Shown here one piece after another: positions 3-10,828 of a stretch of 10,851 nt of DNA (within the stretch, counting starts at the first letter, position 1; every line of letters begins with the position of its first letter). Under the pieces are notes generated by a model. The model ran no database searches and was not told the origin of the DNA. It saw nothing but the letters and a program-made list of their open reading frames with translations. The DNA is from B21-G16 sp003644825 [NCBI: Candidatus Zhuqueibacterota bacterium] (GTDB lineage: Bacteria; SM23-31; B21-G16): contig QNDJ01000024.1 of NCBI GenBank assembly GCA_003644825.1, forward strand, positions 1 through 10,851, read 5' to 3'. Made by a program: the position numbers and the translations under genes.

Positions 3-1079
3 ATAGATATATTATTAAAAAATCCTGTATGTCCGGATACCCTGTGGAAGAAAACTCCAGAAAAGTTCACAGTAGGTGTTGAAGCAGTATTTCCGAAAGA
101 CAAAATAAGTGTGGATGAAGTTAAAATGGAACTTTTTTATACATCATCCAGGACGGTAATTTGCACATATTATTTAGAGGATAAGGGTATTTCAGGCGAC
201 CTTATTCCAAAAGATGGAAGATATTCAACTGAAGTTAATTCAGAGGAGTTTAATAACTTTGTCGGGTCGATGTTTTTTCATTTTACTGCAACAGATATTG
301 ACTCTACAGTATTTAGTTCACCTCTTGACTATCCTTTGACAATTGTAGATGGTGAGAAAAATCTTCCGCCTTCAATCAGGAACATCAACTTGCCTGATTC
401 TATAAATATTGAAGAAAATCCTGAATTAATTGTAGAAATTGAAGTATCAGACCCTCAGGGGAATGATGATATTAAGGTTGCAACGTGTATGATATATTTT
501 CCTCTTTCACCTGTAGCTGATAAGATATTTCATTTGAATGACGAAGGCATAAATGGAGATAAATTAAAAGGTGATGGTATTTTTACCTGTAGAATTAAGA
601 CCAATGAAATATCTTTTTATGGAGAAGGTGTTTATACTTTTTTATTCAAAGTAGAGGACAGTTCAGGAAACAAAAGCCCTTTTGTATGGAAAAATGTTTA
701 TTTTTATTCTGAATCTGGAAACTTTCCACCTTCTGTAACTATTGTTTCTGTTCCAGATAGTATTAAGGCAAAAAATGATACTATCCTGTTTGAAGTAAAA
801 GTATCAGACCCGAATGGTTTATCTGATATTGCTAAAGTTTATTTTAATTCCTATAAACCGGATGGTTCTCCGTCTTCAGCTAATCCTGTTTATATGCTTG
901 ACGATGGAGGAAAAACTCCGGGATTTAATTCAGGTGATAAAAAAGAAAAAGATGGAATCTATTCAAAATTGATAATTATTACACCGGAAGTAAGTAAAGG
1001 AAATTACAGATTTGAATTTTTCGCTGTTGATAATGAAGGGCTTATAAGCCCTGAAAAAAAGCATATAATTGTTGTTTAT
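3..1079 (+). repeat. Three tandem ~360-base coding repeats (Ig-like modules)
   Basis: Modules begin at about bases 3, 360 and 720, a regular period close to 360 bases. Modules 2 and 3 align readily in protein (PPS, LPDSI/VPDSI, EVSDP/KVSDP, GDGIF/KDGIY). Module 1 shares the LEDKGISGD and KDGRYST segment but is more diverged. The DNA itself is not near-identical, so this is an old duplication and not a recombination-active repeat. Confidence 0.65.
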
Positions 1080-1082
1080 TGA
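3..1082 (+). CDS. Surface/secreted protein with Ig-like repeats, C-terminal part (5' end outside window)
   Basis: The reading frame is open from base 3 to the TGA at 1080-1082, giving 359 visible residues. A GTG at 111 could be read as a start, but the same frame continues upstream with repeat-like sequence and the GTG has no ribosome site, so the gene almost surely begins before the window. The visible part is three consecutive modules of about 120 residues (bases 3-359, 360-719, 720-1079), each predicted to be a beta-sandwich. Shared landmarks are N-x-PPS at the start of modules 2 and 3, V-S-DP-x-G in the first strand, L-x-D-x-G followed by GD and then DG-x-[YF] in the middle, and F-x-[AV]-x-D near the end. 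The acidic L-x-D-x-G...GDG-x-Y pattern is common in Ig-like and 'choice-of-anchor' repeats of bacterial surface proteins; metal binding there is only a guess. The protein ends after the last module with no sorting tail. It lies 15 bases before the propeller gene, probably in the same operon. Exact function unknown. Confidence 0.8.
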   Translation: MDILLKNPVCPDTLWKKTPEKFTVGVEAVFPKDKISVDEVKMELFYTSSRTVICTYYLEDKGISGDLIPKDGRYSTEVNSEEFNNFVGSMFFHFTATDIDSTVFSSPLDYPLTIVDGEKNLPPSIRNINLPDSINIEENPELIVEIEVSDPQGNDDIKVATCMIYFPLSPVADKIFHLNDEGINGDKLKGDGIFTCRIKTNEISFYGEGVYTFLFKVEDSSGNKSPFVWKNVYFYSESGNFPPSVTIVSVPDSIKAKNDTILFEVKVSDPNGLSDIAKVYFNSYKPDGSPSSANPVYMLDDGGKTPGFNSGDKKEKDGIYSKLIIITPEVSKGNYRFEFFAVDNEGLISPEKKHIIVVY

Positions 1083-1097
1083 GCAATTAATTTAAAA

Positions 1098-2561
1098 ATG
1101 AGATATAAGTTTATTATAGTAATAATTATTAATATATTTTTTTCAACAGGATTGAATGCTCAGTTTAAGAAATTTATTGCCTATGAATTTGAACATAAGT
1201 TCAATAAACTTTTAAGTAATAGTATTACAGATATACTTATTGTTAATGATGAAGTCTGGTTTGGAACAGGAAAAGGATTGAGCGTAACAAAAGATAACGG
1301 TAAAAGCTTTATAACTTTTTACAGTAAACAGGGGATAGGTAAGGGCAGTGTATCTGCTCTGGCAGTAGATAACGGAATAATATGGGTTGCTACTGGTTTT
1401 GATACAACAACATCCCAGGGTGTTTTACCGGCAGGAAGTGGTTTAAGCTATTCGACAGATGACGGGCTAACCTGGAATAAAATACCACAGCCCGTTGATC
1501 TAGAGGATGAAAACCCTGGATACAAACCAACTACAACCAACGTTACAAACCTTACTTATGATATAGCTTTTGATGATTCATCGGTATGGATTGTCAGTTA
1601 TGGTGGCGGGCTAAGAAAATCAACAGATTATGGGGAGTCCTGGAAGGTTGTAACGCCGGATAACAATTCCTTTGACCCATTAACCTATCTCAACCACAGG
1701 GCTTTTTCGGTAGTATCTGCTGAAAATGGTTTGTGGGTTGGAACTGCCGGTGGAATAAATAAATCTACTGACGGCGGTATTACCTGGATTAACTATAATG
1801 CACAGAATGGAAGTGGAATATCAGGCAATTTTATTGTTGCTCTTGCTGAACAGAAGTTGAACGATAAATCAATAATATGGGCTGCATCCTGGAAAGCAGC
1901 GGGAGAAGAAGAGTTTTATGCAGTAAGTAAAACTGAAAATGGTGGACTTACCTGGGAAACCGCACTCCATGGTGAACAGGTACATAATTTCTTTTTCAAT
2001 GGAAAAGATGTATACGTTCTTTCTGATAATGGATTATGGAAATCCAGTGATTTCGGTAAAACATGGGGGCTATTTCCTCAAATAATTGACGAAATAACTG
2101 GGGAAAAAGTATACACACAAAAATATTATTCCGGTGGATTCGGGAACGGAATATTGTGGATAGGAACAGATGACGGACTTGCTCAATCTTTTGATTATGG
2201 ATATTCGTGGAAAATATTCCGGGCTTTTGAAGAACCGGAAATAAAGAATAAATTTTATACCTATGCGTATCCGAATCCCTTTTCACCTCTCAGGCATAAC
2301 AGAATTAATAATGAAGGGCATATCAGAATACAGTATAATACTATAAATGATACAGAAGTAAGTATTTATATTTATGATTTCTCTATGAAACCTGTCAGGA
2401 CTGTTGTAGAAAACAAGTTCAGAGCAGGCGGTTTCAGTTATTCTGAAGTATGGAACGGCAAAGATGATTATGGGAGAAAAGTGGCTAACGGGGTATACTT
2501 TTATAAACTGGTTAAAAAAGGTGAGAAACCCCTTTATGGGAAAATTGTGATTATTGATTAA
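1098..2561 (+). CDS. Secreted Asp-box (BNR-type) beta-propeller protein with C-terminal FlgD-like/sorting-type domain
   Basis: This 487-residue protein starts with a Sec signal peptide (MRYK, hydrophobic residues 5-16, likely cut after LNA at 21). Seven Asp-box motifs (S-x-D-x-G-x-x-W) follow at about residues 64-71, 119-126, 175-182, 223-230, 279-286, 316-323 and 364-371. The first ends in Phe in place of Trp, and the fifth is degenerate (E-N-G-G-L-T-W). Blade-strand patterns such as VWFGT, LWVGT and LWIGT precede most boxes. Spacing of 37-56 residues fits one seven-bladed propeller. The C-terminus has the YPNPF box at 391-395 and an Ig-like FlgD-type domain (about 408-487) with the typical W-x-G-x-D and VANGVYFYKL motifs. 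Such tails resemble type IX secretion sorting domains. It probably binds or processes something at the cell surface; no catalytic site can be assigned. The ATG at 1098 has only an A-rich leader and no clear Shine-Dalgarno site. It sits between the Ig-repeat gene and two PorV/PorQ-family genes. Confidence 0.85.
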   Translation: MRYKFIIVIIINIFFSTGLNAQFKKFIAYEFEHKFNKLLSNSITDILIVNDEVWFGTGKGLSVTKDNGKSFITFYSKQGIGKGSVSALAVDNGIIWVATGFDTTTSQGVLPAGSGLSYSTDDGLTWNKIPQPVDLEDENPGYKPTTTNVTNLTYDIAFDDSSVWIVSYGGGLRKSTDYGESWKVVTPDNNSFDPLTYLNHRAFSVVSAENGLWVGTAGGINKSTDGGITWINYNAQNGSGISGNFIVALAEQKLNDKSIIWAASWKAAGEEEFYAVSKTENGGLTWETALHGEQVHNFFFNGKDVYVLSDNGLWKSSDFGKTWGLFPQIIDEITGEKVYTQKYYSGGFGNGILWIGTDDGLAQSFDYGYSWKIFRAFEEPEIKNKFYTYAYPNPFSPLRHNRINNEGHIRIQYNTINDTEVSIYIYDFSMKPVRTVVENKFRAGGFSYSEVWNGKDDYGRKVANGVYFYKLVKKGEKPLYGKIVIID

Positions 2562-2563
2562 GG
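2560..2563 (+). promoter_or_regulatory. Ribosome-binding site overlapping the preceding stop codon
   Basis: AAGG shares its first two bases with the TAA stop of the propeller gene (2559-2561) and lies six bases before the ATG at 2570. This supports that start and suggests translational coupling of the two genes in one transcript. Confidence 0.5.
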
Positions 2564-2569
2564 TCAGCA

Positions 2570-3490
2570 ATGTTTTGTAGAACAATAATAACAATTGTTA
2601 TAATTACAGGATGTTTGCATCCATCTTTTGCTCAGGAAGATGGCGGATATGCTGGTGCATTTTTAAGAATGGGACTGGGAGCAAGAGCAAAATCTATGGG
2701 TGATGCTTTTGTGCCGGTTGCAGATGATATATTTGCAATATTTTATAATCCTGCTGGTCTGCCTTTTCTTAGATATAATTCATTTTCTTTATCTTACAGA
2801 TTTCTCTCCCTTGACAGAAAATTCAGTTTTATCGGGTATGCTGGAAGAATAGGACCCTCCGGAGGAATATCAATCGGGTGGATTAATGCCGGTGTTAAAA
2901 ATATAGATGAAAGGGATTTTACTGGGGTCATTACTGGGAAAATTGATAATTCAGAAAATGGGTTTTATTTTTCTTTTGCTAATAGAATATACAAAAACTT
3001 TTCTGTTGGCATAAGTGGAAAAATTTTATACAACAAGCTTTATTCATTAACTGCTAAAGGGTTTGGATTGGACTTTGGGATATTATACAGTGGATTGAAA
3101 AATTTTTCATTTGGACTCCAGATTAAGGATGTCCATTCAAGATATACCTGGAATTCAGAAAGTATTTATGAAAGAGGAACAATCTCTACTGACAGGTTTC
3201 CTGCAGAGTTCAAATTTGGTGCATCTTATTTATATCTACCTGAAAATCTGCTCCTGTCTGTGGAATTCGATAAAAATGAAAAAACTGACTGGAAATTAAA
3301 ATTTGGTGGAGAAAAAAAGTTTTTTGATTTTCTGTTCATTCGTTCAGGCTATAATTCGAGTGGAATTACCTTTGGATTAGGTTTGAAAATCAGGTATTCA
3401 GGTAAGATTTCTTTCATAAATTATTCATTTTGCAAGGATAATTCTGATATTAATTTTTCTAATGTATTCTCTTTTGTTGTTGTTTTTTAG
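2570..3490 (+). CDS. PorV/PorQ-family outer-membrane beta-barrel protein (first paralogue)
   Basis: This 306-residue protein begins with an N-terminal signal sequence (MFCR plus hydrophobic 6-15), probably cut near SFA-Q at 21-22. The family signature is clear: FLRMGLGAR at 31-39, S-M-G-D-A at 42-46 and YNPAGL at 59-64, followed by alternating aromatic/hydrophobic beta-strands to a C-terminal FVVVF, as expected of an outer-membrane barrel ending in Phe. PorV-family proteins are FadL-like barrels; in type IX secretion they carry cargo from the translocon to the attachment complex, while many relatives in other phyla have unknown roles. Length is a little below that of characterised PorV. It is eight bases after the propeller gene and 34 bases before a second member of the family, so a role in exporting or anchoring the upstream proteins is plausible but inferred. 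Oddity: ITGC at residues 12-15 matches a lipobox, so lipoprotein processing cannot be fully excluded. Confidence 0.82.
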   Translation: MFCRTIITIVIITGCLHPSFAQEDGGYAGAFLRMGLGARAKSMGDAFVPVADDIFAIFYNPAGLPFLRYNSFSLSYRFLSLDRKFSFIGYAGRIGPSGGISIGWINAGVKNIDERDFTGVITGKIDNSENGFYFSFANRIYKNFSVGISGKILYNKLYSLTAKGFGLDFGILYSGLKNFSFGLQIKDVHSRYTWNSESIYERGTISTDRFPAEFKFGASYLYLPENLLLSVEFDKNEKTDWKLKFGGEKKFFDFLFIRSGYNSSGITFGLGLKIRYSGKISFINYSFCKDNSDINFSNVFSFVVVF

Positions 3491-3524
3491 AAAAGGGTTA
3501 AAAGAATTTTAATTTGAGGAAAAA

Positions 3525-4439
3525 ATGTCATTAAATAGAGTAATAAAGTTATTTTTTGTTATTTTTCTTTATTCTTTAATTCCATTGTTTGCTTATGGCG
3601 GAGAAACAACTGGATTGACTTTTCTTAGAATAGGTGTGGGTAGCAGAGAATCTTCCCTTGGTGGTGCAGTTACTTCTTTGACAAGAGGACCATCAGCAAT
3701 ATACTGGAACCCTGCAGGTTTGTATTTTTCCCGGAAAAGAGAGTTTACTTTTTCTTATACCAGCTGGCTAATTGATATTAAGACCCATTCCATTGGTTAC
3801 AGTTTCAAAAATAAAATCGGGGTTTTTGGATTAAGTTTTTATTCTTCAGGAATTAAAGGAATTCAGATAAGAACAATCCCGGGAATTGAGCCCGAGGGTG
3901 AAACAAGTTCGCATAATATTATGGCAGGTTGTTCTTATGCAAGGGTTTTGAAAAATCATTTAATATTTGGCGCTACTTTAAAACTGCTCTATGAGAAAAT
4001 TTATATCGATAGTGCCTCTGGTTTTGGAGCAGATTTCGGTATTCAATATGTTCCATCAAAAGAAGGAATCCTTATAGGCGCTACCATACAGAATATTGGA
4101 AGAATGGGAAAATTCAGGTCTGAAAAAAGTAAAATGCCTGCAAAAATCAAATTGGGTATAGGTTATAAAAAAACCTTTTTAAATAAAAAATTATCAGTGC
4201 TTATTGACCAGGATTATGAATTTAATTTTGACTATAAAGATTATTTTTTATCTGGAATAGAAACAGGTTTTAAAGATATTATTGTTTTAAGGGTAGGATA
4301 TATTTTCAAACATTCGACAAGAAATTTTTCTGTAGGTACGGGTTTTAAGTGGAAAAATTATATTTTTGATTATGCAATGATTCCTTTTTCTAATGGGTTA
4401 GGCGATACACACCAGTTTACTTTTAACCTGATTTTTTGA
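3525..4439 (+). CDS. PorV/PorQ-family outer-membrane beta-barrel protein (second paralogue)
   Basis: This 304-residue protein has a signal peptide (MSLNRVIK, hydrophobic 9-23, probable cut near AYG-G at 25-26). It shares the family signature with the preceding gene: FLRIGVGSR at 33-41, S-L-G-G-A at 44-48 and WNPAGL at 61-66, then a run of beta-strands, the mid-protein GFGADFGIQY matching GFGLDFGILY in the neighbour, and a C-terminal segment with YA-x-x-P, LGDTHQF and a terminal Phe. These ends are typical of PorV/PorQ-type barrels (FadL-like fold, outer membrane). The start is supported by GAGGA at 3516-3520, four bases before the ATG. It is the last gene of the plus-strand row. The two paralogues are well diverged, which suggests distinct roles and not a recent duplication. 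Assignment as PorV versus PorQ cannot be made from sequence reading alone. Confidence 0.85.
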   Translation: MSLNRVIKLFFVIFLYSLIPLFAYGGETTGLTFLRIGVGSRESSLGGAVTSLTRGPSAIYWNPAGLYFSRKREFTFSYTSWLIDIKTHSIGYSFKNKIGVFGLSFYSSGIKGIQIRTIPGIEPEGETSSHNIMAGCSYARVLKNHLIFGATLKLLYEKIYIDSASGFGADFGIQYVPSKEGILIGATIQNIGRMGKFRSEKSKMPAKIKLGIGYKKTFLNKKLSVLIDQDYEFNFDYKDYFLSGIETGFKDIIVLRVGYIFKHSTRNFSVGTGFKWKNYIFDYAMIPFSNGLGDTHQFTFNLIF

Positions 4440-4577: not shown

Positions 4578-6521
4578 CTATTCTTTTATTTCAAACTTGC
4601 CTTTTCTTATCTTTTTTTGCATAGAGATGATATCAGTTACTTCGACGAGGAAATCATATTTTCCTGGATTCAGATTGGATACATCAAAAGTAATTTTTTC
4701 CTTTGCAGTCCTTGATGGTGAATCAAAACGATGAACTATTGATACTATTTCTTTCTTTTTCCCGCGCCTGAACAGTCTGCTGATTATCCCCCTCTTTTTT
4801 ACCACTTCATACTGGAATTTAATAGTATAATGGGTTCTGTTGTCCCTGCCGTATAAAAGGTGATATATTTCAATGTAAACCTGTAGTTTATCACCCTTCC
4901 ATATATGGCTGGTTGGTAATACAGGAAAGGGGAAACGGGACATATCCGCTCCAACAGGTAGATTAATCCCAACTACTAAATCACTCACCTCAAGGGTTTC
5001 TGGAGCGGGAGAGAGAGGAACAGTATTTTTTAGTGAAATCTTTCCAATCCCGATGATGGAATCTGCAGAAGTTCTATCAAATGCTTCGGCAGATAACATA
5101 TAATTAAGGGTGCTGTCTGTATGGGGTATTATAAAAATAGATGTATTATCATTCTTTTTTTCTGGTATATCCACAATCCTGTTAATTTCATTCCAGTTTT
5201 TATCTCTAATTATAAGGGTATGTTTCAGGTTATAGTCGGTTATATCTTTTTTTTCTATTACATTTTTTAAGTTTCTTTTAGTTAATCCCCGAGGATACGA
5301 AAAAGCCATTACTGCAAGTTCAGGTTTATTTTCATCATCAATAAAGCGAACCTGATGACAGGTCAGTTCTATCGGTAGAGCAATTTCTTCTACTTTTTCA
5401 GGTGGAATAAGCTTCCGAGCCGGGTAATTAACATCTTCCATACGAAAGCGTTCCCTGAAACTGCGTAATGTATGATAGTTTGGTGGGTGTGCATGAATAA
5501 GGTTTTCCTTCCAGGTTGATTCGAGTTCAAGATACCGTCGTTCAAAATAACTGTCGAAGGATACAAGCTCACTATAATACATAAGTTGTAATAAACTTCC
5601 TGGCAAAATACCTATTGAATATATATCCCCCATTGAATATTCTTGTTTTCTAAGTTGAATTAAACTTGTTTTACGATATGCTCTATCCGGGATAAAATCG
5701 TCTACTCCATTTACCAGACCAAATGGACGACCTGCAGGACTACCAAACATATATATAATAGGTTCTTCAGGTGATAAATATGAATAAATCCATACCTCAT
5801 AGTCAGACAGCCAGTTATATAAATTAATATTTTTTTTCACCTGCAGTGTGCTAATTCTGATATTTGGGATTGCATCCAATACTTCGCCTATCCAGAACTG
5901 CAATTCGGAATCATTTAATCCGAAGGTTCCTGTCTTTTTTCTATCCGGTTCGCCATATTTTACATAAATCATTCCTCTATCATCAGTGCCATAAGCAGTT
6001 CTTTTATTCCTATTAAAGTTTTTTCTGGCATAAGTAATCCGTTCCCAGTGGGTAATAAGTCTCTCATTTAATACCGTCGTTGGAGTTGGGTCTTTTTCAA
6101 TCCAGAAACCTCGTATTTTTGAGCATATTGTTGTGTCATTATCTTTAAGTGCTTTGAACCAGTATTTAGATTGCTCTTTTCTCATTATTGGTGTTATTCT
6201 TTCAATCTCTTTTTTTATATTTTTTCTGTATTCATTGATACTGTTCCTGGAAAACCCCCAGTAGTACATCTGACAGGCAGTTTCATAATATCTTTTCAGT
6301 TTTTTCTCTGTAACAAGTTCAATAAATGCTATTCCCATCCTCGGGTCGGTCTTTCCCAGTCTGGAAAGTGTTTCCTTACCCATAAGCCATATATCAATAG
6401 CTCTTTGCCAGTTTCCTCTATTTTTCTCTTTAATACCTTCAGTGTAAAAATCTGTCTTTATCTGGAATTGAAGAGTATTAAAAGATAAATGAGACAAAAT
6501 AAAAATATATAATAATATCAT
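4578..6521 (-). CDS. GWxTD domain-containing protein
   Basis: This 647-residue protein has a short hydrophobic N-terminus (residues 1-18), probably a signal sequence, though it has no positive charge before the hydrophobic stretch. A helical, TPR-like section follows (about 25-130), consistent with 'GNWQRAIDIWLMG'. The GWxTD domain (about 135-350) shows the hallmark order: WIEKDPTPTT at 140-149, NERLITHWERITYARKNF at 152-169, the core motif, then DRGMIYVKYGEPD at 181-193. The core reads AYGTD (176-180), so Gly and Trp of GWxTD are replaced by Ala and Tyr while Thr-Asp is kept. Residues about 505-647 look like a beta-rich domain ending in an NPGKYDFLVEVTD-type strand. The family is found in FCB and candidate-phylum bacteria and its function is unknown. 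ATG at 6519-6521 is preceded by AGGG with a six-base spacer; no ATG, GTG or TTG lies between it and the upstream in-frame stop at 6570-6572. It is convergent with the PorV pair and divergent from nadE. Confidence 0.85.
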   Translation of the reverse strand: MILLYIFILSHLSFNTLQFQIKTDFYTEGIKEKNRGNWQRAIDIWLMGKETLSRLGKTDPRMGIAFIELVTEKKLKRYYETACQMYYWGFSRNSINEYRKNIKKEIERITPIMRKEQSKYWFKALKDNDTTICSKIRGFWIEKDPTPTTVLNERLITHWERITYARKNFNRNKRTAYGTDDRGMIYVKYGEPDRKKTGTFGLNDSELQFWIGEVLDAIPNIRISTLQVKKNINLYNWLSDYEVWIYSYLSPEEPIIYMFGSPAGRPFGLVNGVDDFIPDRAYRKTSLIQLRKQEYSMGDIYSIGILPGSLLQLMYYSELVSFDSYFERRYLELESTWKENLIHAHPPNYHTLRSFRERFRMEDVNYPARKLIPPEKVEEIALPIELTCHQVRFIDDENKPELAVMAFSYPRGLTKRNLKNVIEKKDITDYNLKHTLIIRDKNWNEINRIVDIPEKKNDNTSIFIIPHTDSTLNYMLSAEAFDRTSADSIIGIGKISLKNTVPLSPAPETLEVSDLVVGINLPVGADMSRFPFPVLPTSHIWKGDKLQVYIEIYHLLYGRDNRTHYTIKFQYEVVKKRGIISRLFRRGKKKEIVSIVHRFDSPSRTAKEKITFDVSNLNPGKYDFLVEVTDIISMQKKIRKGKFEIKE

Positions 6522-6632: not shown

Positions 6633-6661
6633 TTGAATCTTTTACTTGAATATTTTATATT
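6633..6661 (+). promoter_or_regulatory. Candidate sigma70-like promoter for nadE
   Basis: TTGAAT (6633-6638), a 17-base spacer and TATATT (6656-6661) fit a -35/-10 pair with a transcript start near 6668, upstream of the ATG at 6696. If real, the in-frame TTG at 6633 lies inside the promoter and cannot be the translation start. AT-rich context limits certainty. Confidence 0.38.
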
Positions 6662-6695
6662 TCGGTGGAATGATTTATTTATTTTATCTGAAGAT

Positions 6696-7652
6696 ATGTA
6701 TTTGAACTCAGAAGATAAGGTTAAAGAGCTTAAACAGCAGATGAAAATTTCTCCAGAGAAGATAAGCATTTATCTGGAAAATTTTATCAGAAATTACACT
6801 AATAAACTTGAAAGAAATGGAACAATACTGGGTTTAAGCGGAGGGATTGATTCTGCAGTAGTAGCTTCCCTGTGTAAAAGGGCAGTCGGTTCGGAAAACA
6901 CTCTGGCTCTGATTATGCCAGAAAAAGATTCTGAAAAAGAGCATATCAGGGATGCTGTTAATTTTGCTAGAGAATTGAATATTGAATTTGAATTAATAGA
7001 TATAAGTAAGTATATTAAAAGTTTTGGAGCCTATAAATTATTTACCTTAAATAAACTTCCACTTTCAAAGAAACTTAAAAGAATCTTTGTTAGAAAGGCT
7101 TACGATTTTTATGAAAAAAAGACAGGAAAACCCCCTTTTTTAAGCAGTATATCGGGTTTTGAAGGAAAAGAGTTTGCTTCTTATCTTAAAAAAACCAATG
7201 CATACTATCGCATTAAACATAGAATAAGGATGTTGCTGTTGTATATGTATGCTGAACTTGAGAACAAACTTGTTGTTGGAGCTGCCAATAAAAGTGAATA
7301 TAAAATTGGATTTTTTGTAAAATATGGCTGTGATGATAATGCAGATATAATGCCTCTTCTGAATTTATATAAGACTCAGGTAAGAGAACTTGCAGTTTAT
7401 TTAAATATTCCCTTCAGAATTATAAAAAAGCCCCCATCTCCGGACATTATCCCTGGTATAACAGATGAAATTGCGACTGGAGTTCCCTATGAAAAACTTG
7501 ATTTAGTTTTACTAGCCTTAGAAAAAGGATGGAGAAATTCCAGGATAGCTGAAGTTTTGGAACTGGAAGAAAAAAAGATTATCTATGTCAAAAACTTAAT
7601 TGAGAAGTCGGAACATATGCGGAAAGTTTACGTGCCTGAAATTTTCATTTAA
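6696..7652 (+). CDS. nadE: NAD+ synthetase (ammonia-type, divergent, enlarged middle region)
   Basis: This enzyme family adenylates nicotinic acid adenine dinucleotide with ATP and amidates it with ammonia to give NAD+, the last step of NAD biosynthesis, in the cytoplasm. Numbering from the ATG at 6696 (318 residues), the ATP-binding P-loop SGGIDS is at 48-53, RIRM at 176-179, GAANKSE at 195-201, VKYGCDDNADI at 208-218, LYKTQVREL at 224-232 and PPSPDIIPGITDE at 246-258. No glutaminase domain is present. Differences from classical NadE: the Thr of GT-x-NKSE is Ala, TKYGD reads VKYGC, PSADL reads PSPDI, and about 35-40 extra, Lys-rich residues lie between the nucleotide-binding strands and RIRM (about 107-173). 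Usual length is 250-280. The frame is open upstream to a TTG at 6633, but ATG 6696 lies downstream of a promoter candidate; ATG 6741 is another possibility, and neither has a good ribosome site. It may be a specialised NadE subfamily, so activity is inferred. Confidence 0.82.
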   Translation: MYLNSEDKVKELKQQMKISPEKISIYLENFIRNYTNKLERNGTILGLSGGIDSAVVASLCKRAVGSENTLALIMPEKDSEKEHIRDAVNFARELNIEFELIDISKYIKSFGAYKLFTLNKLPLSKKLKRIFVRKAYDFYEKKTGKPPFLSSISGFEGKEFASYLKKTNAYYRIKHRIRMLLLYMYAELENKLVVGAANKSEYKIGFFVKYGCDDNADIMPLLNLYKTQVRELAVYLNIPFRIIKKPPSPDIIPGITDEIATGVPYEKLDLVLLALEKGWRNSRIAEVLELEEKKIIYVKNLIEKSEHMRKVYVPEIFI

Positions 7653-7670: not shown

Positions 7671-8717
7671 TTACCATTTGAAAAAATATGTTAACCTTGG
7701 AATGATTTCCATATCAGGCTTTTTTCCGTTTATTTTACTGTAACTTACAAGCTCTATATTCGGAATAATATGGATATTTTTTTCGAGTAAAAAGTCTATA
7801 CCAAACAAAAAGAATTTTGATTTTGCATTGGTGTCAAATTTAATATAAGGTATCTTATCGCCTTCAGGAATCGGGTCAAAAACAAAGTCTACACGAGAAA
7901 TTCCTTTTATCTTTTCAGTAAAATTTCTTATATAAAATAGAGAAAGGAGTTCAAGTTTTATATCATTATTTTTGGTTCCATTCTGTCTGGTTTGCTGGAC
8001 AAACTGCACACCAAACCTGTGAATTTTTGTTCTGTAAGCCAGAAACCCCTGAAATGTGTATCTATCAAAATGACCGGGATAACCGTTCCAGTCGGCATAA
8101 ACTTCAACTGTCAGGTTATCAGTAAAATTATATCGTAGAGAAGCCATTACCATTTTTTCTTTATCTGTTTCAGATTTTATTCCATTTCCATTTGCAAGCA
8201 TCAGCCGGTAGCTTACGGTTTTTGATTTGTTCAGGGAGCCTTTAAAACTTATACCAAAATCTCTTGGATTACCAAATTTAAATAAATCAACAGCAGTCTT
8301 TTCCACAGAACGATATCCCCAGAAGCTTTCTACAAAACCCCAGGTTGGTGTAGGTGATATGCCAATGATAATTGAATGGTTGTTGTGTTTCCAGTTGAGG
8401 TAAGCATCTTTTACATAGGGCTCCAGTTTAGTTTTTGTTTTAAAATCTCCAGGGCTGTTCATTTCAAGACGAAGGCGAATGGAGAATGTGCGGCTTAAAT
8501 TTTTATCGAATGTAAAATATATGCGTCGAAACCAGAATCCATTCTCTTTCTCTATATTTTTGTTATGACTTGAAGCAATATAATAGATATCCCCGAACAT
8601 ATAGCCAGAGAACTCTGCATTTTCATAATTCTGAGATTTGTTTTTTTCTCCTGCAAAAGAATTAAAAGAAAAAGCGATTAACGAGGTCGTTATAATTCCA
8701 ACTATAATCTTCTGCAT
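7671..8717 (-). CDS. Porin-like outer-membrane beta-barrel protein
   Basis: This 348-residue protein has a clear signal peptide (MQK, hydrophobic 4-16, cut after SFA at 20-22). The mature part alternates aromatic and hydrophobic residues in short strands and ends in YFFKW, a terminal aromatic typical of outer-membrane barrels. Several segments resemble the phosphate-selective porin O/P (OprO/OprP-like) superfamily: FWFRRIYFTF at 61-70, YVKDAYLNWK at 101-110 followed by IIIGISPTPTWG at 116-127, and FGNPRDFGISFKG at 148-160. Substrate cannot be told; phosphate selectivity should not be assumed. The ATG at 8715-8717 is preceded by AAGG about nine bases upstream. A strong terminator separates it from the transketolase gene upstream, so it should have its own promoter within 8718-8765, where I find no convincing -35/-10 pair in very AT-rich sequence. 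Its stop is only 18 bases from that of nadE on the other strand, with no terminator between them. Confidence 0.75.
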   Translation of the reverse strand: MQKIIVGIITTSLIAFSFNSFAGEKNKSQNYENAEFSGYMFGDIYYIASSHNKNIEKENGFWFRRIYFTFDKNLSRTFSIRLRLEMNSPGDFKTKTKLEPYVKDAYLNWKHNNHSIIIGISPTPTWGFVESFWGYRSVEKTAVDLFKFGNPRDFGISFKGSLNKSKTVSYRLMLANGNGIKSETDKEKMVMASLRYNFTDNLTVEVYADWNGYPGHFDRYTFQGFLAYRTKIHRFGVQFVQQTRQNGTKNNDIKLELLSLFYIRNFTEKIKGISRVDFVFDPIPEGDKIPYIKFDTNAKSKFFLFGIDFLLEKNIHIIPNIELVSYSKINGKKPDMEIIPRLTYFFKW

Positions 8718-8806: not shown

Positions 8807-10828
8807 TTAGTGTTTACTTTTATAGTAATCGAACAACTCTTTAGCGAGTTTGGCGATGTGTTCACCGCTTACTTCAAATTCTTTTACCAGTTCCCAGGGA
8901 TATCCAGATTCACCGAATCTGTCCTTTACCCCGATCATTCCCATAATGATTGGTTTTTCAAAGAGTTCTTTTGATGTTGTCATAACAGCAGCAACCCTGT
9001 TCCCGAATCCACCAACCTGATGTTCTTCTGCGGTTATAATAACATTTGTTTCCAGAACCGCTTTTATTATGGTTTCTTTGTCAATAGGCTTGACAGTATG
9101 CATATTCACAACCCTCGTTTCTATACCGAATTCTTCTTTTAAAATATAGGCAGCTCTCATTGCTTCAGGAACACTCGGTCCACAGGCAATAATAGCAATA
9201 TCCTCATTTTCTGATTTATAATCCGAGGCAAGGACCGTTTCGAAAGCATCGATGAATCTATCTTTTTCACCCCTGTATCTAATTACATTTGCTTTACCAA
9301 ATACAAAAGGAGTATCAGGAGTGGTAACTATCGGTGTTGCTTCTCTTGCGAATCTTATATATTTTGGTCCTTTAATATTAAACAGGAGGTATTCTGTCAT
9401 TCTTTTTGTCTCAACAGAGTCACAGGGAACAGCAACATGCATATTTGGTAGTCCACACATCTGGAATAATTCTTCAAGAGCCTGATGAGTTGCGCCATCT
9501 GGACCTACAGAAACACCACCATGAGCACCAGCAACAAAAACGTTAAAGTTCCCATAACAAACAGTAGTCCTGAGCTGGTCAAGGTTTCTGGCAGACGCAA
9601 AAGTTCCATAGGTGCCAATTACTGAAAGTTTTCCTTCTTTTGCAAGGCCTGCAGCTACTCCTGTTCCACTTTGTTCTGCTATTCCCATACTTAAGAACCT
9701 TTTTTTTCTCTCGGGATAGTTTTCATAGAATTGACTTATAGTAATTGAACCGGATATATCCTGCCCGAGACAGACTATTCTCTCATCATCTCCATGTTCA
9801 TTAAGGCATCTTCCAAATCCTCTTCTTGTTGGGTCCATATCAACTTTCATTTTATCGCCTTTATTCCAGAAGTAGTCTTTGCTGAATTTTGGCATTTTTG
9901 ATTCGAGTTTTATTGTAACTTTTTTCTGATAATCTTCGGCTTTTTTAAGCAATCTTTCAACATCGAGTTTATCTCTAAGACCGAGTTGTTCAATAGCGCT
10001 TTCCATCTGTTCTCTATTAGGTGCTTTTCCGTGCCATCCAGCCACATTTTCCATAAAATCTACACCTTTTCCCTTTATTGTATGGGCAATAATTACAGTG
10101 GGTTTTCCTTTATATTCTTTTGCAGTTTCGTAAGCTCTAATAATTTCTTCCATATTATGTCCATCAATTTCAATAACATTCCATTTAAAGCTTTTGTATT
10201 TTTCGACTATGGGGTCAATATCCATTACATCCTTTACCCATCCATCAATCTGGAGCCTATTTTTATCAAGGACGTTAATCAGGTTATCCAGTTTATAATG
10301 TCCAGCTTCCATAATTGCTTCCCATATCTGTCCTTCCTGATGTTCTCCATCTCCGGTTATGGTATAAACTCTGAAATTTTTATTATCGAGTTTTGCAGCA
10401 AGGGCTATACCAACTCCAATACTCAATCCCTGCCCTAAGGAGCCGGTGGATGCCTCAACACCTGCCAGTTTCAACCAGTGTGGGTGTCCCTGGAATGGAC
10501 TATAAAGTTTTCTTAAAGTTACAACCTCTTCAACATCAAAATATCCTGCCATACCGAGCCCTAAATATAAACTTGGTGCTTTATGACCTGTTGACCATAT
10601 TACCCGGTCTCTTCCATCCCAGAAGGGGTCATCAGGGTCATGGTTAATAATATGAAGATAAAGAGCCGCAGTAATATCCATAATTGATAAGGTACCACCT
10701 GAATGACCAGAACCAGCCGCATAAAGCGATATCATATTATATCCTCTCATTAATTTTGCAGCCTCTTTCAACTCTTCTATTGTATACTTTTTCCTGACTT
10801 TACCGGTTTTTGAATCTACTATTGGCAT
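8807..10828 (-). CDS. tkt: Transketolase (full-length, archaeal-like sequence type)
   Basis: Transketolase moves two-carbon ketol units between sugar phosphates in the non-oxidative pentose phosphate pathway, using thiamine diphosphate, in the cytoplasm. The 673-residue length is normal for the whole enzyme. N-terminal half: GSGHSGGTLS at 39-48 with active-site His42, STGHKAPSLY at 79-88, STGSLGQGL at 127-135, the cofactor/metal motif GDGEHQEGQIWEA at 159-171 with Asn190, and AGWHGKAPN at 263-271. A charged linker spans about 285-328. C-terminal half: GIAEQ at 382-386 with the catalytic Glu385, YGTFASARNLDQLR at 407-420, GPDGATHQALEE at 442-453, YIRFAR at 490-495, and a third domain from about 545 with EEHQVGGFGN at 601-610. 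Each half resembles the separate subunits of split archaeal/Thermotoga-type transketolases, here joined in one chain. All key residues are present, so it should be active. The start is fixed by a perfect Shine-Dalgarno site, and a strong terminator follows the stop. Other pathway genes are not in view. Confidence 0.93.
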   Translation of the reverse strand: MPIVDSKTGKVRKKYTIEELKEAAKLMRGYNMISLYAAGSGHSGGTLSIMDITAALYLHIINHDPDDPFWDGRDRVIWSTGHKAPSLYLGLGMAGYFDVEEVVTLRKLYSPFQGHPHWLKLAGVEASTGSLGQGLSIGVGIALAAKLDNKNFRVYTITGDGEHQEGQIWEAIMEAGHYKLDNLINVLDKNRLQIDGWVKDVMDIDPIVEKYKSFKWNVIEIDGHNMEEIIRAYETAKEYKGKPTVIIAHTIKGKGVDFMENVAGWHGKAPNREQMESAIEQLGLRDKLDVERLLKKAEDYQKKVTIKLESKMPKFSKDYFWNKGDKMKVDMDPTRRGFGRCLNEHGDDERIVCLGQDISGSITISQFYENYPERKKRFLSMGIAEQSGTGVAAGLAKEGKLSVIGTYGTFASARNLDQLRTTVCYGNFNVFVAGAHGGVSVGPDGATHQALEELFQMCGLPNMHVAVPCDSVETKRMTEYLLFNIKGPKYIRFAREATPIVTTPDTPFVFGKANVIRYRGEKDRFIDAFETVLASDYKSENEDIAIIACGPSVPEAMRAAYILKEEFGIETRVVNMHTVKPIDKETIIKAVLETNVIITAEEHQVGGFGNRVAAVMTTSKELFEKPIIMGMIGVKDRFGESGYPWELVKEFEVSGEHIAKLAKELFDYYKSKH

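Follow-up and report, generated by a model that had tools for sequence, protein, structure and literature searches.

The window analyzed here is a stretch of 10,851 bases that makes up the whole of contig C24 (QNDJ01000024.1) of genome G000 (493 contigs totalling 2.48 Mb; completeness 83.6%). Its positions 3–4439 are filled by four co-directional open reading frames (ORFs), which we label, in gene order, IG, PROP, PVA and PVB. Our analysis identified these genes as a conserved module that encodes an Ig-like repeat protein, a secreted β-propeller whose tail resembles the C-terminal domains (CTDs) recognized by the type IX secretion system (T9SS), and two outer-membrane barrels of the PorV/PorQ family, and the module is found in genomes that bear the T9SS translocon SprA. 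We consider it probable that the four products form a dedicated carrier–client surface complex that uses the SprA translocon of the genome, in which a barrel would bind the propeller tail. Such a complex is best read as analogous to, but distinct from, the PorV-PorU and PorQ-PorZ pairs. The four genes are as follows:

3–1082, + strand: IG, Ig-like repeat protein; 5′ end lost at the contig edge; predicted lipoprotein on the evidence of its orthologues
1098–2561, + strand: PROP, secreted Asp-box β-propeller with a C-terminal sorting-like domain, 487 amino acids (family scans, structural model and motif count)
2570–3490, + strand: PVA, PorV/PorQ-family outer-membrane barrel in a clade of its own (PorV_fam 106.9 bits; PorV in the PDB, E = 3.7e-10; tree support 100/100)
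3525–4439, + strand: PVB, second PorV/PorQ-family barrel, in a separate clade (PorV_fam 163 bits; PorV in the PDB, E = 1.3e-25; tree support 98/83)

Conservation of the four-gene module

The genes are separated by gaps of 15, 8 and 34 bp (IG/PROP, PROP/PVA and PVA/PVB) and may be co-transcribed. To follow the arrangement in other genomes, we used PVB alone to scan genome contigs, which returned nine loci in metagenome-assembled genomes titled Ignavibacteria, Ignavibacteriae or Bacteroidetes. In 9/9 of these loci PROP, PVA and PVB follow one another in order, and IG was recognized by BLAST in 8/9. In addition, profiles of PROP, PVA, PVB and IG were built from 14, 11, 11 and 14 sequences, respectively, including those of the window. 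The PROP profile (E up to 1e-25, scoring limited to five candidates per genome) matched 126 of 296 genomes from the phylum of locus L048, with a single match in 124 of them. We then inspected 60 PROP loci from 60 genomes, chosen by us from the 126 and more densely among the lower scores. All four genes are present in 44 loci and PROP, PVA and PVB in 50; PVA lies at most 1.5 kb downstream of PROP in 56, and any PorV-type barrel occurs within 3.5 kb in 58. Among the other 66 genomes, gene order was examined in G034, G036 and G037 (as L048, L050 and L051).

The related genomes show the same arrangement to varying extents. G002 carries IG-PROP-PVA up to the contig end, G014 carries PROP-PVA-PVB and G008 carries PROP-PVA. 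In G012, PROP-PVA-PVB is preserved with a lipoprotein in place of IG, and in G006 the order is IG-PROP-two FGE-domain genes-PVA-PVB, downstream of SprA. G001 retains part of PROP at the end of a contig, with no IG beside it, and G005 (63% complete) gave short matches only. Overall, the gene order is kept at 20–57% protein identity to the genes of the window and among otherwise different neighbours. As a variation on this order, locus L225 (G319) carries a tandem duplication, IG-PROP-IG-PROP-PVA-PVB.

The barrels, the propeller and the lipoprotein

Both barrels exceed the cut-off of 90 of the NCBIfam PorV_fam model (NF033709), and PorV is the best solved-structure sequence match of each. Both remain below the PorV equivalog (NF033710, cut-off 250; 35.6 for PVA and 63.4 for PVB) and the PorQ equivalog (NF033711, cut-off 220; 69.4 and 95.2, respectively), and they share 29% identity with each other. 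In a tree of 74 rows, PVA (26 rows), PVB (24), PorQ-like proteins (17) and PorV (7) are each separated from the remaining rows by a single branch; supports are 99/96 for the PorQ-like proteins and 100/99 for PorV in addition to those listed above. PorQ-like genes located away from the cassette exceed the cut-off of 220 in 8/9 genomes of the PVB-found loci, and occur at 147–182 bits, below that cut-off, in G001–G006, G008, G012 and G014; PVA and PVB thus represent a third and a fourth paralogue. The genome of the window gave no PorQ-like match better than PVB itself (89.8 bits), which we attribute to the incompleteness of the assembly (83.6%). We also considered whether PROP could be the PorZ of this lineage, with the barrels as its PorV and PorQ, and rejected this assignment because PorZ homologues, PorV and PorQ-like proteins are located elsewhere. 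A separate form of the barrel family is seen at L055 13990–16398 (G000:C2), an 802 amino acid frame in which a PorV-family barrel is joined to a C-terminal part with TPR-type matches; PorV-family matches in frames of 787–815 amino acids also occur in G002, G004 and G005.

The features of PROP are the following:

1098–1160, + strand: predicted signal peptide (from sequence); the inferred cleavage site would make Gln22 the probable mature N-terminus
1203–2240, + strand: propeller, residues 36–381 (AlphaFold model, VIA-align rows spanning ~35–381, motif count)
2262–2558, + strand: putative C-terminal domain, residues 389–487 (YPNPF, then modelled strands at 409–485; weak matches to PorU, PorZ and TIGR04183)
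2385–2387, + strand: Met430, at the Lβ3β4 glycine position of other CTDs (tail alignment)
2541–2543, + strand: Lys482, which by its position would correspond to the PorV-contacting lysine of F. johnsoniae CTDs

Gln22 is at least 90% conserved among 14 orthologues. The seven Asp-boxes of PROP start at residues 64, 119, 175, 223, 279, 316 and 364, whereas shuffled PROP sequences contain 0.078 on average and two at most (1000 shuffles). PROP scores 39.4 against Sortilin-Vps10 (above the cut-off of 33) and 26.3 against BNR (just below the cut-off of 27), and its AlphaFold model shows a single propeller followed by a strand-rich C-terminal domain (mean predicted local distance difference test, pLDDT, 72.9; predicted template-modelling score 0.66). 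Foldseek placed PorZ (5m11) first for this model (E = 1.2e-11, template-modelling scores 0.34/0.24), just ahead of BT4663-type sensors and nearly tied with them. VIA-align placed GH74 propellers first (Z 26.8) with many unrelated propellers also among its rows, and PorZ is absent from its best 50 rows, which excludes nothing. The propeller match by itself thus says little about function. Against the PorZ model (NF052228) PROP reaches 23.1 bits for a cut-off of 260, with residues 351–486 as the best stretch.

The tail of PROP scores just below the established models, with 20.8 bits against FlgD_ig (cut-off 27) and 20 bits against TIGR04183, the T9SS type A CTD (cut-off 23). A Type B CTD model, which the NCBIfam library presumably contains, was not among the NCBIfam matches for PROP at E up to 0.1. 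The tail does have a lysine close to the C-terminus, a near-invariant feature of T9SS CTDs: Lys482 is invariant across the alignment of PROP orthologues, and a lysine is found near the C-terminus in 96/96 distinct PROP tails, always as GK, and in 39/43 other CTD tails from all fetched loci, 12 of them as GK. In the F. johnsoniae structures, the near-invariant lysine of the CTDs is described as contacting PorV (PMC10994853).

What sets the PROP tail apart is the Lβ3β4 position. The glycine found there in 42/43 other CTD tails, which were retrieved with the PROP-tail profile and are hence biased towards PROP-like tails, occurs in 0/96 PROP tails, 85 of which have methionine. When the comparison is made with CTDs of the window's own genome, the glycine is present in 14/14 other aligned CTDs and in 0/74 PROP tails (66 with methionine); 16 other CTD proteins of that genome were considered, and two of them, L252 with its open end and another protein from L055, stayed outside the alignment but have the glycine by eye. 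As reported for RgpB, this glycine matters for export, given that G699R blocks secretion, and a Tannerella CTD with methionine at the glycine position is described as not properly secreted in P. gingivalis (PMC11285876).

IG scores 40.5 bits against the NCBIfam model choice_anch_X (cut-off 25). A lipobox cysteine behind a hydrophobic stretch was found in 14/14 complete IG orthologues inspected, and under a loose rule in 48/50 further IG matches, a count in which the sites picked for L197, L209 and L212 look wrong and both of the rows scored as lacking a lipobox show a plausible one. Judging from the complete orthologues, IG is a predicted lipoprotein. The lipobox in these orthologues also led us to reject IG as a cargo carrying its own CTD.

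An earlier note on this DNA, made from the sequence, had described most of these elements, and our analysis agrees with it on the four closely spaced co-directional genes, on the seven-Asp-box protein with a YPNPF motif and FlgD-like tail, and on the two diverged PorV/PorQ-family barrels. Its Ig-repeat protein is likewise present at 3–1082; the suggestion that this protein is CTD cargo did not hold.

Type IX machinery in genomes carrying the module

Detailed knowledge of the T9SS comes from Bacteroidota in which a proton-driven motor is present, and T9SSs may also occur in Ignavibacteriota, Rhodothermota and other FCB phyla (PMC11285876). The genome of the window encodes SprA (SprA_N 125 bits, cut-off 27; a 1960 amino acid frame on contig C42), a fragment of a PorU-type C25 peptidase (227.7 bits) that opens contig C8 and is followed by a CTD, PorV (C80; 312 bits in the family model and 243.4 in the PorV model, cut-off 250) and a full-length PorZ homologue (C185; 242.8 bits, cut-off 260). 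GldM was not found in this 83.6% complete genome, nor above the cut-off in the 31 genomes searched, where diverged forms may escape the model; GldL was found in 0/21 genomes, in a search whose controls gave no match either. In three further genomes (G017, G018 and G019), C25 peptidases exceed the cut-off and SprA_N has no match.

To place the module against these components, the searches of 296 genomes for PROP, SprA_N and GldM were taken as one draw, since their genome handles agree; a completeness of at least 90 was requested, with per-genome values not displayed. SprA_N was found in 227 genomes, GldM in 70 and PROP in 126. All PROP genomes are SprA-positive (126/126), and PROP occurs in 0/70 GldM-bearing genomes. 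Expressed by class, PROP is present in 126/159 genomes with SprA and without GldM, and in 0/68 genomes with both. It should be noted that these 68 genomes are exactly the best SprA_N scorers (E below 1e-110); two further genomes have GldM without an SprA match. The complementarity of PROP and GldM probably reflects clade membership, and the model may miss strongly diverged GldM in the other genomes, so that we take the pattern as a lineage marker that does not prove the motor absent.

The same complementarity (126/159 versus 0/68) is the basis for a bolder proposal, namely that these genomes have a second, motorless kind of T9SS, with SprA, PorU, PorV, PorQ and PorZ and without GldLM, in which the module would do part of the work of the motor, for example by drawing loaded carriers out of SprA. 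We regard this as improbable; the same pattern would arise from phylogeny alone or from a GldM that has diverged beyond the reach of the model. The energy-requiring step of the system is described as the release of the carrier–substrate complex (PMC10994853). The module marks SprA-bearing lineages where the GldLM motor went undetected and brings together, in a single compact unit, a client with its likely carriers and a lipoprotein partner. It brings two questions within reach of experiment: how carriers are selected by CTDs, and what drives or substitutes for the release of carriers in lineages where GldLM was not found.

Readings of the module and the genes around it

According to the reading that we favour, PROP would be exported by Sec and its C-terminal domain would enter SprA, where its own barrel (PVA, PVB or both), and not PorV, would take the tail. 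PROP would then remain on the cell surface without being cleaved, held by that barrel as PorZ is by PorQ and PorU by PorV. The IG lipoprotein would be a further outer-membrane partner, and the propeller would bind a ligand, possibly a surface glycan. There is a precedent for such an arrangement, since Type B CTDs are reported to use cognate, often gene-linked carriers (PMC12618676; PMC10994853). In addition, the PROP tail shares ANGVYFY and GK with the PorU tail of its own genome, and the CTDs of PorU and PorZ are described as remaining uncleaved in P. gingivalis (PMC11285876). The position of the module downstream of SprA in G006 also favours this reading.

The barrels had been proposed in the earlier note as dedicated exporters or anchors of the upstream cargo, possibly in a lineage without a full canonical T9SS. 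For the propeller this agrees with our results, with PVA close downstream in 56/60 loci and a CTD-like tail, while the lipobox argues against it for the Ig-like protein. Since PorV-type barrels travel with the propeller and the propeller has a CTD-like tail, a role as dedicated exporter or anchor is what we consider most plausible. The note had asked for a search for SprA, and a homologue was found on C42; it had also asked whether the propeller and both barrels stay adjacent in relatives, and they do so in order in 9/9 and in 50/60 sampled loci. It had named a genome devoid of any type IX-like translocon, together with unrelated neighbours in relatives, as grounds for giving the idea up, and the opposite was found on both counts.

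Several observations weigh against the favoured reading. The order in G003 is PROP-IG-PVA-PVB, and G004 has IG-PROP-PVA with PVB not recognized; 10/60 loci lack the PROP, PVA and PVB arrangement, and L196 and L229 have no recognized barrel. The GK pair is not exclusive to PROP, as the 12/43 other CTD tails show, and the NG-V/I/T-Y pattern, which corresponds to the ANGVYFY feature shared with PorU, occurs in just 45/74 PROP tails and in 2/14 other CTDs. RgpB G699P had been reported as harmless (PMC11285876), and conserved CTD residues other than the lysine are described as shaping the fold without contacting the translocon in the F. johnsoniae structures (PMC10994853), so that loss of the glycine need not by itself alter the choice of carrier. 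Finally, the model of PVA is weak (pLDDT 65.7).

Several known systems come close to the proposed complex. The PorQ-PorZ pair of the P. gingivalis attachment complex also combines a CTD-bearing propeller protein, the first Foldseek match of PROP, with a PorV-family barrel. However, the module has one propeller instead of two, PROP falls far below the PorZ cut-off, PorZ and PorQ-like proteins are separate in related genomes, and the module adds a second barrel and a lipoprotein. Type B CTD cargo of F. johnsoniae resembles the module in that the cargo gene adjoins its carrier gene and in its divergent sorting tail, but its carriers are PorP/SprF-like, whereas the candidate carriers of the module belong to the PorV family. 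PorV, the Type A carrier, belongs to the same NCBIfam subfamily as both barrels and is their best sequence match of solved structure, but PVA and PVB form separate clades and stay far from the PorV equivalog. The dome of the Bacteroidota β-barrel assembly machinery (BAM), treated below, likewise has a FadL-type fold beside surface proteins that include a propeller. A full-text literature search, whose hits were judged by title and the start of the abstract and whose coverage leaves out most subscription papers and preprints, found no published description of the four-gene module.

Compatible with the complex proposed here, and possible though clearly less likely, is a third attachment-type unit in which the propeller would bind polysaccharide or lipopolysaccharide (LPS) for presentation to the sortase or on the cell surface, much as PorZ serves PorU. 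The first rank of PorZ in Foldseek and the reported binding of A-LPS by PorZ (PMC8545088) point in this direction, as does gene context: relatives of Wzx-type flippases occur in the fetched stretch of 20/60 and 6/9 cassette loci (sampled and PVB-found, respectively) versus 0/9 SprA control loci, and in the scanned loci the neighbours include glycosyltransferase and other polysaccharide genes. However, the PorZ match has low template-modelling scores and is nearly tied with the BT4663-type sensors, VIA-align prefers GH74, and the genomes already own a PorZ homologue. In addition, the flippase context is confined to a few lineages, with 0/7 among the loci of kin and other genomes of our set, some on short contigs.

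It is unlikely that PROP is an ordinary Type A cargo carried by PorV, with the barrels as paralogues that have another job, such as moving hydrophobic molecules. The tail does keep the YPNPF start and the terminal lysine, PorV is present, and PorV has been called a FadL homologue (PMC12578637). Nevertheless, PROP is co-conserved with the barrels and nearly always a single match per genome (124/126), and its tail lacks the glycine of all 14 other aligned CTDs of its genome.

We are somewhat more doubtful that the module helps to assemble the outer membrane in the manner of the extracellular dome of Bacteroidota BAM, where PVA would correspond to BamG and IG and PROP to the surface lipoproteins. 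For the PVA model, Foldseek listed 9hiv_F, a BAM chain (E = 8.6e-10), ahead of PorV 8gl6_F (2.3e-9) and FadL, all near ties. BamG is described as a FadL-type barrel holding a surface lipoprotein, and BamI as having a propeller (PMC12578637). By sequence, however, profile matches of PVA and PVB included no BAM barrel at E up to 10 and both match PorV best, PROP has a T9SS-type tail whereas BamI is a lipoprotein, and the module marker occurs only with SprA in the 296-genome draw, whereas BAM is general.

The weakest explanation, that the order is kept by descent only and has no functional tie to type IX secretion, appeals to the inheritance of gene order among related genomes and to an SprA link confounded by phylogeny, and we judge it very improbable, since the order survives the protein divergence and changing neighbours described above and all 126 PROP genomes of the draw are SprA-positive.

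Beyond the four genes, an M50 membrane protease distinct from RseP is encoded immediately upstream, in the same orientation, in 25/60 and 3/9 loci, adjoining IG in 22 and 3 of them and adjoining PROP in three that have no recognized IG; these neighbours, like the flippases, were counted per locus and not per lineage, with kinship uncorrected. Examples of this protease family are L188 4389–5402 and L201 3883–5118. A rhomboid-type protein below the family cut-offs is encoded in G003, with cluster members in G001 and G002.

The two proteins with an FGE-sulfatase domain in G006 (L062 12932–16478) lie between PROP and PVA, downstream of SprA, and reach ~64 bits against GldK, whose model has a cut-off of 350, compared with 63 and 70 against EgtB; a role as GldK is only a lead. 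In G006 (L062 18972–19901) and in G012 (L063 6022–7190), PVB is followed by two small genes with lipoprotein-like products. Their phmmer relatives were found in no other locus of the searched set, and we rejected them as ExbB/ExbD-type motors: the three that were scanned had no Pfam match, and they are read as lipoproteins.

The remainder of the window is occupied by a GWxTD-domain protein (4578–6521, − strand; 56 bits, cut-off 28), convergent with the cassette, and by three ordinary neighbours: an NAD synthase (6633–7652, + strand), a Porin_O_P-like barrel just below the Pfam cut-off (7671–8717, − strand) and a transketolase (8807–10828, − strand).

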